A stretch of DNA of 38,047 nucleotides from a virus. Below are positions 2,606 through 9,339 of the stretch, one piece after another; position 1 is the stretch's first letter; each line of letters begins with the position of its first letter. Below the pieces are notes generated by a model that searched no databases, was not told the origin of the DNA, and saw only the letters and a program-made list of their open reading frames with translations. The stretch covers positions 1 to 38,047 of the IMG/VR virus record IMGVR_UViG_3300047554_000323, one strand, 5' to 3'. The position numbers were made by a program, and so were the translations under genes.

Positions 2606-3118
2606 ATGGTAACTCAAGATGAACTAAAACAATGGCTAAACTACGATAAAAATACTGGTATTTTTACTTGGAAGGCTGAAAGAACAGGTGTAGGACATGG
2701 TCCAAAAAAAGTTATTGGGGCAGAGGCTGGCTGGGCCCAAGAGAGCGGCAGAAGACAAATTAGAATAAACAAGAAAGATTACTATGCTCATAGATTAGCA
2801 TGGTTATATGAGTACGGTTACATGCCTAGTGAGTTCTTGGACCACATTGATGGCGATCCATCCAATAATAGAATTAGTAATTTACGGGAGGCAACAGCCA
2901 GCCAAAACGCTCAAAATACAAAATTATCGTCGATCAACACTTCTGGATATCGGGGTGTTTCTTGGCGAAAAAATAGAAATAAATGGACATCTGGGATTTA
3001 TATCAAAAAGAAATATAAGTATCTTGGTTCCTATAATACTCCAGAAGAAGCATATCAAAGATATCTTGAAGAAAGAAATAGATTAATGCCATTTCAGCCA
3101 ATACCTAGAGATCAATAA
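2606..3118 (+). CDS. HNH homing endonuclease with AP2 DNA-binding domain
   Basis: This 170-residue protein has the classic two-part form of a free-standing phage homing endonuclease. The HNH core lies around residues 60-105: a YYAHRLAWLYEYG start, then FLDHIDGDPSNNRISNLREAT with the DH pair and the N..N..NL metal and fold residues. A C-terminal AP2-type domain spans about 112-155 (GYRGVSWRKNRNKWTSGIY, then YLGSYNTPEEAYQRY). AAGGA precedes the ATG, and there is a private sigma-70-like promoter. The stop overlaps the next gene's start (TAATG). Such enzymes cut alleles lacking the gene and copy themselves in. The duplicated membrane-protein start on either side suggests the target was that gene. 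Confidence 0.9.
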   Translation: MVTQDELKQWLNYDKNTGIFTWKAERTGVGHGPKKVIGAEAGWAQESGRRQIRINKKDYYAHRLAWLYEYGYMPSEFLDHIDGDPSNNRISNLREATASQNAQNTKLSSINTSGYRGVSWRKNRNKWTSGIYIKKKYKYLGSYNTPEEAYQRYLEERNRLMPFQPIPRDQ

Positions 3119-3860: not shown

Positions 3861-5183
3861 ATGGATTACAAACCAAACTTATCGCATAAACAAACAAGAA
3901 CCAAAGTTCGACGAGCACTGGCAGTAGTCAAACTTTTTTACAAAAGCAGACCAACCGCAGTTGGTTTATCAAAAACACTCCTAGACAAACATTTTGGCAG
4001 AACTAACGACAAGTTAGGCAAATATCTACGCTCTAACTTATTAGTATGCGTAGATGACACATGGAGTTGGGGCGCAACAACTCATACTAAAACTTATATC
4101 AAGAATATCCCAGGTATTACAAAACTAATGAGTGACTTAGTTGCTTGGGAACAGCAAACTCGCCCACATATTACAGAAGATATGATCTCACACGAGATTG
4201 TTAATGAGTATATCAAGCGAGAACTACCAATCGACCAACTAGAGACCGGCAACTTCATTTATGAAGCCAAATCAGGGCGTCTACATAATCCATTCCAAAA
4301 TATTGCTAAAACAGAGCGTTCTAAGTTATTAGTAGAATATGGTTATGAACATGACTATGATATTGACGCTGCCGCTCCCACACTATTATTACAACTAGCA
4401 CAACAACTTGGCTTCACTAAGCAAACGCCCCACTTAGATCGACTACTAACAGATAAGAACTGGGTTCGCTCACATGTCCAATCCATTTTAGATATAGACG
4501 CAAAAACAGCAAAAATATTAATCAACTCATTAGTAAATGGAGCAAAAGTTGGTGTTGATAACCAGTTTCAGAAGTTCGCCATTTATGAACTACTACAACG
4601 AGATGAAGCACGAGTTCGTGTTATCTCTGGCTTAGATGACATCAAAGCGGACCCATTTATCAAGGGACTTCGTAGTGATATCTCTGCTATGTGGTCTTTT
4701 ATCTCTAAGACAAATCGCTTTGGCTACAGAACAAGCAAGTCGGGCAGACGTCTACCTATGAGTTGTAAGCAAAAAGCAGCCATCTACAGAGATATCGAGA
4801 CCCAAGTAATGAATCAAGTAAGTGAGTATCTATCAGACAAGTGGTTAGATATCAAGCACCTACGTATCCATGATGGCTTTGTAGCAGCCACCGAGATAGA
4901 TGAAGAAGAGATCAGCGATTGGGTCTTTATGAAGACTGGATATCGCATCAATCTCACACATAAATCCCTCAAAGAAGAGACCGTCTTAGCAGACGGATCT
5001 AATGAAGTCGTTACCACTCCTTCATTAGTTTTATTAGAACAAGAGGTCGGTGGTCATCTCTCTCATATTACATACAACAGTTTTAGTAATAACCAAGAAC
5101 AAGAAGTTGGTAGTCATCTCTCTCATATTACATACAACAGTTTTAGTAAGAAACAACAGCATAACCAGCATAAAATAGAGTAA
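3861..5183 (+). CDS. Short polymerase, family A / T7 RNA polymerase-type palm
   Basis: This 440-residue protein has three motifs in the order and spacing of family A DNA polymerases and T7-type RNA polymerases. Motif A is DYDIDAAAPTLLLQLA with D167/D169. Motif B is K218-ILINSLV-N226-G227, where K+8 is Asn in place of the usual Tyr and K+9 is Gly. Motif C is LRIHDGFVAA with H337-D338-G339. A to B is about 50 residues and B to C about 120. There is no 3'-5' exonuclease domain. The 160 residues before the palm are unassigned but basic at the start. The C-terminus carries two 20-residue repeats. It may be a replicative or priming polymerase or a transcriptase; the sequence does not decide. There is no strong Shine-Dalgarno (AAAGGATAG is the nearest). 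Confidence 0.65.
   Translation: MDYKPNLSHKQTRTKVRRALAVVKLFYKSRPTAVGLSKTLLDKHFGRTNDKLGKYLRSNLLVCVDDTWSWGATTHTKTYIKNIPGITKLMSDLVAWEQQTRPHITEDMISHEIVNEYIKRELPIDQLETGNFIYEAKSGRLHNPFQNIAKTERSKLLVEYGYEHDYDIDAAAPTLLLQLAQQLGFTKQTPHLDRLLTDKNWVRSHVQSILDIDAKTAKILINSLVNGAKVGVDNQFQKFAIYELLQRDEARVRVISGLDDIKADPFIKGLRSDISAMWSFISKTNRFGYRTSKSGRRLPMSCKQKAAIYRDIETQVMNQVSEYLSDKWLDIKHLRIHDGFVAATEIDEEEISDWVFMKTGYRINLTHKSLKEETVLADGSNEVVTTPSLVLLEQEVGGHLSHITYNSFSNNQEQEVGSHLSHITYNSFSKKQQHNQHKIE
5037..5149 (+). repeat. 60-bp tandem duplication in the polymerase C-terminus
   Basis: The block beginning at 5041 repeats exactly 60 bases later, from 5101. The first 49 bases of each copy differ at only three positions, two of them silent. 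It encodes two copies of a 20-residue unit, EQEVGGHLSHITYNSFS plus a short polar spacer. The near identity indicates a recent duplication or strong conservation. A repeated peptide after a catalytic domain could be a partner-binding tail, for instance to a clamp or SSB (inference). Confidence 0.8.
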
Positions 5184-5854: not shown

Positions 5855-6199
5855 ATGAAACTTAAATTAGACGACAAGACATTATTAGATATCATACTAA
5901 AGGATACCAAAACAAACAGACAGCGAATGACAGCTGGCATTCTGCGTAAACTGGGCAAATTAGTATCCCAAGAAAACAAAAGAAAAGAATTTAGTAAGAT
6001 AAATCCAGCAACTGGTGAGCAAATGTATGCTGACTATATCGTAATGGATTATGAGAATGCCATAGTGACAACAACTCAATACGGAAAGATCGTCAAGTTA
6101 GTTTTTAAAAAGCAGCAAACAAGAACTGCTAAAGCAACAGTAGTTACTAAGCCAACTATCATTATTAAAAAGAAAAGAGTGTTTAATAAAAATGAGTGA
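5855..6199 (+). CDS. Basic hypothetical protein, 114 aa
   Basis: The start at 5855 is set by GAGGTGAA seven to ten bases upstream. The 19 codons open ahead of it run through the terminator T-run and are not used. The protein is Lys/Arg-rich with a very basic tail (FKKQQTRTAKATVV then IIIKKKRVFNKNE), which suggests nucleic-acid binding. No family is recognised. It overlaps the next gene by eight bases. Confidence 0.65.
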   Translation: MKLKLDDKTLLDIILKDTKTNRQRMTAGILRKLGKLVSQENKRKEFSKINPATGEQMYADYIVMDYENAIVTTTQYGKIVKLVFKKQQTRTAKATVVTKPTIIIKKKRVFNKNE

Positions 6200-6596
6200 A
6201 GAACAGCGAATCAAGAGAGGTATAAAGCCTGGCTCTCATCGCTGGTGGAGAAAGTGGCCAGACGGCACAATTCAACGAATATCTAGAAGAAGTGATCGTC
6301 CGCCACCAGTCGCCAGACATGGTGAACCAGTGTGGTCAAGAGGACTAGGAAGATTCCCTACAGAAGAGCAAAAACGTGCTCTTGGTGATGCTCTAAGAGG
6401 AGTTCCAAAGACTGAAGAACACAAACAAAAACTCAGAGATGCTAAGTTAGGTAAGCCAAAGACTGACACGCATCGCAAAAACATGAGTGAAGCGCACAAG
6501 CAAAGAGTAGCAAAACTACATAAAATCATGGCAGAACACTCAGTTAAATGGAGTGAAGCCTGTAAAATTTTGAAAGAAAGTAAAAATGCGGGATGA
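6192..6596 (+). CDS. NUMOD3-type DNA-binding protein, homing-endonuclease related
   Basis: This 134-residue, strongly basic protein has two NUMOD3-like units near residues 75-105 (RGVPKTEEHKQKLRDAK and LGKPKTDTHRKNMSEAHKQR). NUMOD3 modules normally read target DNA for GIY-YIG or HNH homing enzymes. No GIY-YIG or HNH catalytic core is visible, so it is either a nuclease remnant that kept its binding domain or a free DNA-binding protein. The N-terminus (GIKPGSHRWWRKWPDGTIQRISRRSDRPPP) is Trp/Arg-rich. It ends TGA inside GGATGAAC, overlapping downstream starts. Confidence 0.6.
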   Translation: MSEEQRIKRGIKPGSHRWWRKWPDGTIQRISRRSDRPPPVARHGEPVWSRGLGRFPTEEQKRALGDALRGVPKTEEHKQKLRDAKLGKPKTDTHRKNMSEAHKQRVAKLHKIMAEHSVKWSEACKILKESKNAG

Positions 6597-6733: not shown

Positions 6734-8482
6734 ATGACCCTTACCTATAAACTAATCAATGGCAATAGTGCCGAAGAACTCAAACAATTTCCAGACAACC
6801 ACTTTGATAGTGTAGTCACAGACCCACCCTACGGTATCAACTTTCTTGGTAAAGATTGGGATACTAATACTGGCGAAGAAGAAGTGTATCGCCAATGCCT
6901 TCGTGTCTTAAAACCCGGTGGTCACTTATTGGCATTTAGTGCGGCACGAACCTATCATCACTTAGCGATGGCTGTTGAGCGTAGTGGGTTTGAGATTAGA
7001 GATCAAATTATGTGGGTGTATGGTAGTGGCTTCCCTAAAAGTCAAGATGTAGGTAGAGCGATAGATAAGCAATTAGGTAAAAAGGGCATCAAGGGTCCTC
7101 TAAAAAGAGGTGCCGAGCGTATGATAAATGCCACTGATGAAGACGGCAACAGAAATAACTCTGATGGTGTATGGGCGAATGAAGTCAACAGAGAGCCTCA
7201 TATTATACTACCAGAAAGCGATGAAGCCAAACAATGGAGCGGCTGGGGCACCAATCTAAAGCCAGCACACGAACCAATTGTTATGGCACAAAAGCCATTC
7301 AAGGACGCTATCTATAAGAATGTTCAGAAATGGGGCACAGGTGCTATCAATGTGGATGGGTGTAGGGTTGAAATACCACAAGAAGACAGAGAGAACTACA
7401 TCTACAATATGAATGGTGTAAATCGCTCTACTCAACAACAAGATGAAAAGTTAGAAATGTGGAATGGTAAGACAGGCTTCTCTATTCAAAAGGGTGAGAG
7501 AACTGACGAGAACCTACCACAAGGCAGATTCCCAGCAAACTTTATTCACGATGGCAGTGACGAGGTTGTGGCTATGTTCCCTGGTGAAGATGATAACTCA
7601 GCCGCCAGATTCTTTAAACAATGCGAACTAACAAAGGAAGAAATATGTCTAAACACGGAACAAAGCAATGCCCACAATGCGGCTGCGAATTTATACTCAA
7701 GCGACCTCATAACATTTATTGCTCAAAGCGATGTAGTAACATTGGCTCAAAACGAGGGTTTGCTACTAAAACTAAACTCGGAACATCATTCTATGAGCGT
7801 AACTCAGAACGAGTTAAAAACGATAGAAATCAGCGTTATGCTAATGATCCAGAATATCGTAAAAAGGTCCTCGCTAGGGCTGCCGCAAGAAAATATCACA
7901 ATGTTAAACAACCGTGTGAAAACTGTGGCAACTCAAAAGCAGACAGGCACCACGATGATTACGATAAGCCACTGGAGATCAGATGGTTCTGCCGAGCCTG
8001 TCACATTCAGCATCACATCAAACTTGAAGGAGGCTGGGCAAGCTGGAAGACGATTCCTGTATAGTGCTAAAGTTAGTCGTGCGGAGCGTCACGTAGGTCA
8101 CGAAGATCCAGGCCCTATTATGCCACGTCCACGTAATGAGGATGGCTCTATTAGTATTGGTGGTAACATTAGCTCAATCACAGTTCAAAAAGAACAAAGC
8201 GATGAAGTAGGCGCAAGCAACAACCACCCAACAGTCAAGCCTGTAGCCCTAATGAAGTATCTAATCAAACTAATCACACCACCCGGCGGCAAGGTGCTTG
8301 ACCCATTCAACGGTTCGGGTTCAACAGGTATGGCGTGTGCTGAATTAGGTATGGACTACACTGGTATAGAACTTGACCCACACTACATAGAAATCAGTCG
8401 TCGTCGTATTGAAGCGTGGTATAACAAGACACATCCACAAACACCTAACCCATTCGGCAATGAGTTATTCATTGAAGAATAA
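6734..8482 (+). CDS. DNA methyltransferase (amino group) with a 148-residue insertion
   Basis: A SAM-dependent DNA amino-methyltransferase of the order IV ... X-I. The catalytic motif is DPPY at residues 30-33 (VVTDPPYGINFLGKDWD); near the C-terminus come NNHPTVKP, then motif I VLDPFNGSGSTG at 521-532 and ELDPHYIEISRRRIE. The likely target is adenine or N4-cytosine. It would modify phage DNA against restriction or alter host gene control. Residues 294-441 do not look like methyltransferase: this stretch contains the HNH gene in another frame. Without it the sequence reads AARF-LYSAKVSRAER and the protein is 434 residues. Whether the long form is active is open. Confidence 0.85.
   Translation: MTLTYKLINGNSAEELKQFPDNHFDSVVTDPPYGINFLGKDWDTNTGEEEVYRQCLRVLKPGGHLLAFSAARTYHHLAMAVERSGFEIRDQIMWVYGSGFPKSQDVGRAIDKQLGKKGIKGPLKRGAERMINATDEDGNRNNSDGVWANEVNREPHIILPESDEAKQWSGWGTNLKPAHEPIVMAQKPFKDAIYKNVQKWGTGAINVDGCRVEIPQEDRENYIYNMNGVNRSTQQQDEKLEMWNGKTGFSIQKGERTDENLPQGRFPANFIHDGSDEVVAMFPGEDDNSAARFFKQCELTKEEICLNTEQSNAHNAAANLYSSDLITFIAQSDVVTLAQNEGLLLKLNSEHHSMSVTQNELKTIEISVMLMIQNIVKRSSLGLPQENITMLNNRVKTVATQKQTGTTMITISHWRSDGSAEPVTFSITSNLKEAGQAGRRFLYSAKVSRAERHVGHEDPGPIMPRPRNEDGSISIGGNISSITVQKEQSDEVGASNNHPTVKPVALMKYLIKLITPPGGKVLDPFNGSGSTGMACAELGMDYTGIELDPHYIEISRRRIEAWYNKTHPQTPNPFGNELFIEE
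7613..8056 (+). mobile_element. 444-bp in-frame HNH insertion in the methyltransferase gene
   Basis: Bounded by GATTC at 7608-7612 and again at 8052-8056, exactly 444 bases (148 codons) apart. Deleting one unit restores a smooth AARFLYSAK in the methyltransferase. The insert has no stop in the methyltransferase frame and is filled by the HNH gene in the next frame. The third frame has stops at once. The left edge is uncertain: a few residues after AARF (FKQCELT) could be original. Confidence 0.55.
7645..8064 (+). CDS. HNH-type endonuclease nested inside the methyltransferase gene
   Basis: A 139-residue protein in a frame shifted from the methyltransferase. The start at 7645 is preferred over 7621 because AAGGAAG lies 4-5 bases before it. 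It has an N-terminal zinc ribbon (CPQCGCEF ... IYCSKRCS) and a C-terminal Cys/His-rich HNH core (CENCGNSKADRHHDDYDKPLE then WFCRACHIQHH). These are hallmark Cys/His pairs of small phage HNH nucleases, so this is the translated frame with biological content. Its TAG stop is made from bases that encode LYS in the downstream methyltransferase segment. It probably spreads by homing into methyltransferase genes (inference). Confidence 0.8.
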   Translation: MSKHGTKQCPQCGCEFILKRPHNIYCSKRCSNIGSKRGFATKTKLGTSFYERNSERVKNDRNQRYANDPEYRKKVLARAAARKYHNVKQPCENCGNSKADRHHDDYDKPLEIRWFCRACHIQHHIKLEGGWASWKTIPV

Positions 8483-8731: not shown

Positions 8732-9068
8732 TAGACCAGATACCACACTAATCAAGAACTTTGATAAAATGGTGGCAGAACTAAGCAAGTATATGAACGA
8801 GTGGGAGATTGACCGTTGTGTTGATTTCATGGACAGTATCTCTGATTCTCGTTGGGACATTAACCCTACCGTTGACGAGTGTGCCAGTCAGCTAAAAATC
8901 ATTCTAGGTGCCGAGCGTTACCAACAGATTAAAATAGAATGGTCTAAAGCTAATCAGCATCTTATCAACGATGGTCGGACAAAGTTCATTCATAAGCAAA
9001 CAGGCATTGCTTATGATGGCTTAGATCCCGAAGACAATCCAGATGACTATCAAGCCATACAAGCGTAA
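8715..9068 (+). CDS. Hypothetical protein, 117 aa
   Basis: An acidic, helical protein (DKMVAELSKYMNEWEIDRCVDFMDSISDS ... DGLDPEDNPDDYQAIQA) with an Asp-rich C-terminus. The start lies inside the previous gene and the end overlaps the HNH gene at 9043, so the whole set is translationally packed. Not recognised. Its position directly before an HNH gene and the terminase genes would fit a packaging or head accessory role, but nothing in the sequence proves that. Confidence 0.6.
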   Translation: MKTLIDRPDTTLIKNFDKMVAELSKYMNEWEIDRCVDFMDSISDSRWDINPTVDECASQLKIILGAERYQQIKIEWSKANQHLINDGRTKFIHKQTGIAYDGLDPEDNPDDYQAIQA

Positions 9069-9339
9069 ATCTATACCAAAGAAGCTCCGAGAGCAAGTGA
9101 TCAAAGAGCAAGGTATTAGGTGCCACTACTGTGGCGCTAAGACCACGCCACGCCAGCGCCAACTGGATCACATTCTACCAGTAGCAAAAGGCGGCCTAAA
9201 CTCCGCAGATAACCTACTGGTATCATGTAAGCGCTGTAATGGTAGAAAACTCAATCAGGACTATCACAAGTTTATCACTAAGCGCATAGTAGAGGTAGAG
9301 TTAGAACTAAAAACGCTAAAAGCAATAAATAAAGTATGA
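9043..9339 (+). CDS. HNH endonuclease near the terminase genes
   Basis: A compact 98-residue HNH nuclease: zinc Cys pairs at C27/C30 and C62/C65, the core QLDHILPVAKGGLNSADNLL with D42-H43 and N57, and a basic N-terminus (KPYKRKSIPKKLREQ). The full motif set predicts an active metal-dependent nuclease. Many tailed phages carry an HNH protein beside the terminase that takes part in DNA packaging (established for several siphoviruses). This one is placed just upstream of the terminase subunits, so it could be a packaging cofactor rather than a homing enzyme. Confidence 0.85.
   Translation: MTIKPYKRKSIPKKLREQVIKEQGIRCHYCGAKTTPRQRQLDHILPVAKGGLNSADNLLVSCKRCNGRKLNQDYHKFITKRIVEVELELKTLKAINKV

Follow-up and report, generated by a model that had tools for sequence, protein, structure and literature searches.

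In an environmental virus, the gene for a DNA methyltransferase (MTase) has an insert that is probably a selfish HNH element in a permissive loop; ribosomes would read through it in the host frame and make the HNH protein from an internal start. The window, i.e. the whole stretch of DNA analysed, is the 38,047-base IMG/VR virus record IMGVR_UViG_3300047554_000323. We refer to the HNH family of the window, at the AARFF/YCAK insertion site, as class A. The general arrangement is already published (PMC11855218); new here are the HNH family, the site, the selection statistics for the second frame and the breadth of the distribution.

The host gene, its insert and the nested HNH gene

The main features of the locus are:

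6734..8482, + strand: host gene, phage DNA N6/N4 methyltransferase (PHROG 67; Pfam N6_N4_Mtase), 582 aa including 148 inserted residues
7601..7615, + strand: left host flank AARFF, the insertion site; empty homologues run on as AARFF-YCAK, nested class-A relatives are broken here
7616..8059, + strand: insert of 444 nt, or 148 codons in the MTase frame, absent from empty homologues
7634..7640, + strand: Shine-Dalgarno-like AAGGAAG, 4 nt before the HNH ATG; a similar motif precedes 27/38 class-A HNH starts
7645..8064, + strand: nested HNH gene, 139 aa, with an N-terminal CxxC zinc module, a helical linker and a C-terminal bba-metal (HNH) module
8051..8056, + strand: second RF codon pair (CGATTC) before YSAK, repeating the host RF at 7607-7612
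8060..8071, + strand: right host flank YSAK, aligned to YCAK of empty homologues

The host protein matches PF01555 (E 1.8e-33, residues 25-555) and phrog_67 (E 1.9e-69). Its DPPY, HPTVKP and DPFxGSGST motifs are intact, with MTase motifs preserved on either side of the insert, and its frame is open over the whole of 6734-8482, as a first, sequence-only reading of this DNA had described for the 444-base stretch. That reading had proposed a search for an uninserted allele. Many homologues have one, in the form of an unbroken AARFF-YCAK; the window and its relatives have 140 to 171 codons between the two halves of this motif. Since the empty homologues read straight through the site, the 148 residues are not an MTase domain, and no homologue was found that has these residues but lacks the HNH frame. 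In 32 relatives, the insert is always in frame, and every complete case has a conserved C-terminal MTase part that stays in frame. In a structure model of the MTase, the insert (residues 295-442) was predicted with low confidence (pLDDT about 33-64) compared to the core blocks (80-96), which would fit an added loop.

GATTC occurs at 7608-7612 and again exactly 444 bases further on, at 8052-8056. The spacing reported in the sequence-only reading was thus correct, but the junction it drew from it (AARF-L) was not retained; judged by the empty AARFF-YCAK homologues, the insert is better placed after AARFF, at 7616-8059. An RF-like pair occurs three codons before YCAK in nearly all of the 32 relatives (z about 25 vs. 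the remainder of the insert). In a few relatives, L281 (as YCVQ), L310, L309 and L325, the left end clearly shows a degraded copy of YCAK. This likeness is weak on average and we therefore do not claim a full target-site duplication.

The HNH ORF nearly fills the insert, beginning 29 nt past the left junction and ending just beyond the right one. Its TAG stop (8062-8064) spans the host codons TAT AGT and is indeed borrowed from the host, as had been noted. The ORF can begin at 7645 behind AAGGAAG, the start named in that reading, or at an in-frame ATG further upstream (7621). The MTase codon starts at HNH codon position 2, such that HNH position 3 is MTase position 2.

In a comparison with PHROGs, the HNH protein matched the endonuclease family phrog_2340 (E 1.1e-10), as did 14/14 aligned members of the family, while a Pfam search with the 139-aa protein gave no match. 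The family alignment has 30 invariant columns, with an invariant HH..D.Y...W.C...H...H pattern. An AlphaFold2 model reached a pLDDT of 83.8, rising above 90 in the C-terminal strand-strand-helix module. Comparison of this model with solved chains (VIA) returned HNH and bba-Me nucleases at low Z, the best being the Gme HNH nicking endonuclease with a modest Z of 4.7. Foldseek found nothing in the PDB at E under 0.001, and a PDB sequence search yielded only Cas5-HNH (E 0.3). These data point to a predicted HNH (bba-Me) endonuclease with a bba-metal fold and catalytic His, the structural match being modest.

Around the MTase, the window has three more homing-type genes, one for an HNH_3 protein with an AP2 domain (2606-3118), one for a NUMOD3-motif protein just upstream of the MTase (6192-6596) and an HNH gene downstream of it (9043-9339); free-standing HNH genes are thus found near the nested one. 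A 440-aa ORF at 3861-5183 had no Pfam or PHROG match.

Recurrence in relatives and selection on the open host frame

In a first scan of viral contigs, 18/18 of the closest HNH relatives were nested at this MTase site, with an identical relative frame. A profile search found 45/52 viral loci nested likewise, plus one in Paraburkholderia phenazinium LMG 2247 (L281, NZ_FNCJ01000007.1). This last copy of the class-A element probably sits in a prophage and, its bacterium being in culture, is convenient for laboratory tests. All 38 distinct class-A relatives share the site (AARFF/insert/YCAK) and the relative frame. Identical junctions recur in dozens of separately assembled contigs and an assembly error, a danger raised by the sequence-only reading, was rejected on these grounds. 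In one locus (L012:965-3964), the MTase frame resembles an in-frame intein by eye (ACLSND...VTGN/SGF; no detection by Pfam) and also contains a class-A hidden HNH.

Occupied alleles are patchily distributed among related MTases, with empty alleles present. On an MTase tree whose empty rows were chosen for similarity to the window MTase, the inserted MTases do not form one group (4 label changes); the AU p value of 0.0455 is borderline and the window MTase is a long branch. HNH distance correlates weakly with host distance (r2 0.22). The identity of the HNH protein, the scattered occupied alleles and this weak correlation suggest that the element moves to empty alleles by cleavage and repair.

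Over the HNH gene, the third frame has 19 stops, consistent with its earlier description as full of stops, and the MTase frame has none. For the window gene alone, this openness was not significant by within-gene codon permutation (P(no stop) 0.12-0.20). With a single gene this weak, the case rests on the family. The same permutation predicted 37.8 stops in the MTase frame of the 38 class-A genes, and 0 were seen in 38/38. The product of P over these genes, about 1e-23, assumes independent lineages; as this holds only in part, the value is an overstatement. A codon-swap version with 13 genes gave a mean of 13.2 stops and a minimum of 9. Among 55 more distant HNH relatives outside MTases, the equivalent frame has a mean of 5.8 stops; two have none, one of these being a spurious 6-aa reading. 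Judged from the sequences of the family, chance openness of the MTase frame is excluded, and this explanation was rejected. The earlier impression that the open frame is selected thus holds at the level of the family and is weak for the window gene on its own.

Synonymous codon identity in the HNH frame was 1.34-fold the permuted value, compared to 1.11-1.18 in the MTase flanks at matched divergence, and host-frame identity was 0.361 vs. 0.263 expected. As HNH codon position 3 falls on MTase codon position 2, a synonymous change in the HNH gene is at the same time a residue change in the MTase frame. At the sequence level, these values are moderate evidence for conservation of host-frame residues over and above what the HNH protein needs; common descent, recent transfer or RNA signals could contribute.

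A proposed mechanism and its alternatives

We propose that the 444-nt insert sits in a permissive loop of the middle (target-recognition) region of the MTase and stays unspliced. Its length, a multiple of three, and the lack of a host-frame stop imply that ribosomes starting at the MTase ATG would read through it, to give a full-length MTase with about 148 additional residues. A second start within the insert, behind its own Shine-Dalgarno-like site, would yield the 139-aa HNH protein. In co-infecting phages with an empty site, this protein would presumably cut or nick that site, whereupon repair would copy the element over. The architecture is as the sequence-only reading had it, although the kind of strategy it called unusual is already published (PMC11855218); cleavage, homing, the making of both proteins and the activity of the enlarged MTase are inferred.

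The open MTase frame might be a mere by-product of HNH codon usage in an MTase broken by the insertion. Stops in this frame would require xTR-Rxx codons, which are rare in genes for proteins rich in Cys, His, Lys and Arg, and the window gene taken singly could be open by chance (P 0.12-0.20). Against this, all 38 genes are open, with the very low product of P given above, HNH relatives outside MTases accumulate stops, and the C-terminal MTase part remains in frame and conserved behind inserts of 140-171 codons. With stops lacking throughout the family, this explanation is already refuted for the most part and we consider it to be very improbable. We give just as little credit to the idea that the 148 residues are a genuine target-recognition domain of the MTase and the HNH frame a chance ORF. 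The insert does lie in the middle region, where target recognition is expected, and host-frame residues do seem to be conserved beyond the needs of the HNH protein. However, empty homologues align without the 148 residues, and were the grounds for rejecting this candidate. Moreover, it is the HNH frame that is conserved as a protein, matches an endonuclease family throughout and yields a confident model, while the host-frame reading does not; nor was an MTase seen with the 148 residues and a destroyed HNH frame.

Removal of the insert after all, by an undescribed form of RNA or protein splicing or by ribosomal bypassing, is unlikely. A repeated RF, with one copy at each end of the insert, could be of use in hopping or splicing, but an Rfam search at E up to 10 found no intron (just a single meaningless lncRNA match) and Pfam no intein/Hint splicing domain in the window MTase, the same library detecting Intein_splicing in two other loci of our survey (L211 and L221). 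Just 24 nt of the insert fall outside the HNH ORF plus its start region, and the insert junctions (K...L/Y) lack intein end residues. A group I intron was rejected for want of a catalytic core and of space outside the ORF, and an intein for want of a splicing domain, in agreement with the first reading of the sequence. Furthermore, if the insert were taken out before translation or in the course of it, there would be no reason for the host frame to stay open; the simplest mechanism is production of the MTase with an added loop. A functional pair of HNH and MTase, with for example a restriction-like or nicking function, in place of a selfish element and its host, is similarly improbable. Class-A HNH genes rarely occur anywhere but at this MTase site, and host-frame residues appear constrained. 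Many close MTases nevertheless have no HNH, other sites in this MTase family have HNH families that differ in sequence, and the inserted MTases are scattered on the tree. The selfish element read through by its host thus remains our preferred reading.

Known systems and other nested HNH types

The closest described system is the ShiLan domain, an out-of-frame HNH in mycobacteriophage DNA methylases, first reported by Gosselin et al. 2023 (PMC9957025) and studied by Arsenault, Gosselin and Gogarten 2025 (PMC11855218), where homing (cleavage and transfer) was likewise inferred. Published cases amount to a handful of actinobacteriophages. As in the window, the ShiLan insert is in frame and stop-free within the MTase of a phage, conceals an HNH gene in a second frame with the same relative phase, has no intron or intein signature, is patchily distributed, has a repeat of host residues at its end and is a predicted loop. 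The HNH family differs, with BLASTP aligning the window HNH to that of ShiLan over 29 aa of the zinc finger only, as do the site (AARFF/YCAK vs. the KPxxEPIxxARKPL strand), the insert (148 vs. 202 aa) and the HNH start (ATG with a Shine-Dalgarno-like site vs. GTG without one). Class A is also not confined to mycobacteriophages. With both its HNH family and its site being different, the window element is a new family of the kind described for ShiLan, and not the ShiLan domain proper. The second published case (PMC11855218), Pacc40 gp60, is likewise a phage methylase whose open frame contains an HNH-like ORF in another frame, but is set apart by its description as a divergent methylase with another HNH-like protein.

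Free-standing phage HNH homing endonucleases (PHROG 2340 and relatives) belong to the same protein family as the window HNH. They lie outside MTases, however, where no open second frame is needed, and stops abound in their MTase-equivalent frame. Inteins and group I introns similarly place an endonuclease gene in a conserved host gene that stays functional, whereas the window insert has no splicing domain or Rfam intron and nothing removes it.

A wider survey, with more than a hundred loci (counts not deduplicated), found other HNH types inside open MTase genes of this family:

Class B (ShiLan type): L006, Cr-LKS3, ShiLan
Class C: between the RNxGL motif and HPTVKP; L018, L125; 58/74 loci flagged nested, ten of these in inteins
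Class D: L112; other relative frame
Class E: L008; other relative frame
Class F: Escherichia phage BUCT618; 12/12 loci nested
Intein-borne HNH_3 loci (the ten of class C, in another MTase family): L211:2483-2920, L221:2468-2914, L219, L225-L228, L231, L232, L238

The class B HNH aligns with that of ShiLan over 168 aa at 48% identity, at the same site. Its members in Cylindrospermopsis phage Cr-LKS3 (L162, OM373202.1) and L006:2062-2550 are 93% identical to each other and come from a cyanophage and a metagenomic virus, far outside mycobacteriophages. A class D search gave no further close members. An annotated site-specific DNA methyltransferase of the cultured Escherichia phage BUCT618 (OM735461.1) conceals a 201-aa HNH gene (L161:993-1598), whose viral relatives are all nested alike, between SKQID and SKAID copies. 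Two nested genes occur in one MTase in L006, L008, L018 and L352. L247 and L303, flagged as nested by script, have hosts without MTase motifs and were counted as spurious.

In ten class-C loci, an HNH_3 gene lies out of frame inside the intein of a ParB-domain phage MTase, another MTase type. Pfam Intein_splicing spans the HNH in L211 (E 2e-10) and L221 (E 3e-10) and is weak in L225. An intein with its endonuclease in another frame would be unusual, and no description of an out-of-frame HNH inside an intein was found in the literature searched, one relevant 2025 preprint lying outside it. On overlapping-frame HNH genes, later searching added only PMC12613952 to PMC11855218. Out-of-frame nesting could be a general lifestyle of phage HNH elements, with the host-frame reading as a second selected product each time; this we regard as an even call, given at least six HNH types and at least five sites in one MTase family, mostly the same relative frame, and one type also in inteins.

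For annotation, these loci are a warning that records labelled 'DNA methyltransferase' hide endonuclease genes, as in Escherichia phage BUCT618 and Cylindrospermopsis phage Cr-LKS3. For homing genes in conserved genes, they illustrate a third way beside introns and inteins, in which the second reading frame is made harmless. Class A occurs in many environmental viruses as well as in a cultured Paraburkholderia; together with the many loci of the survey, this makes the cost, translation and mobility of such elements testable.
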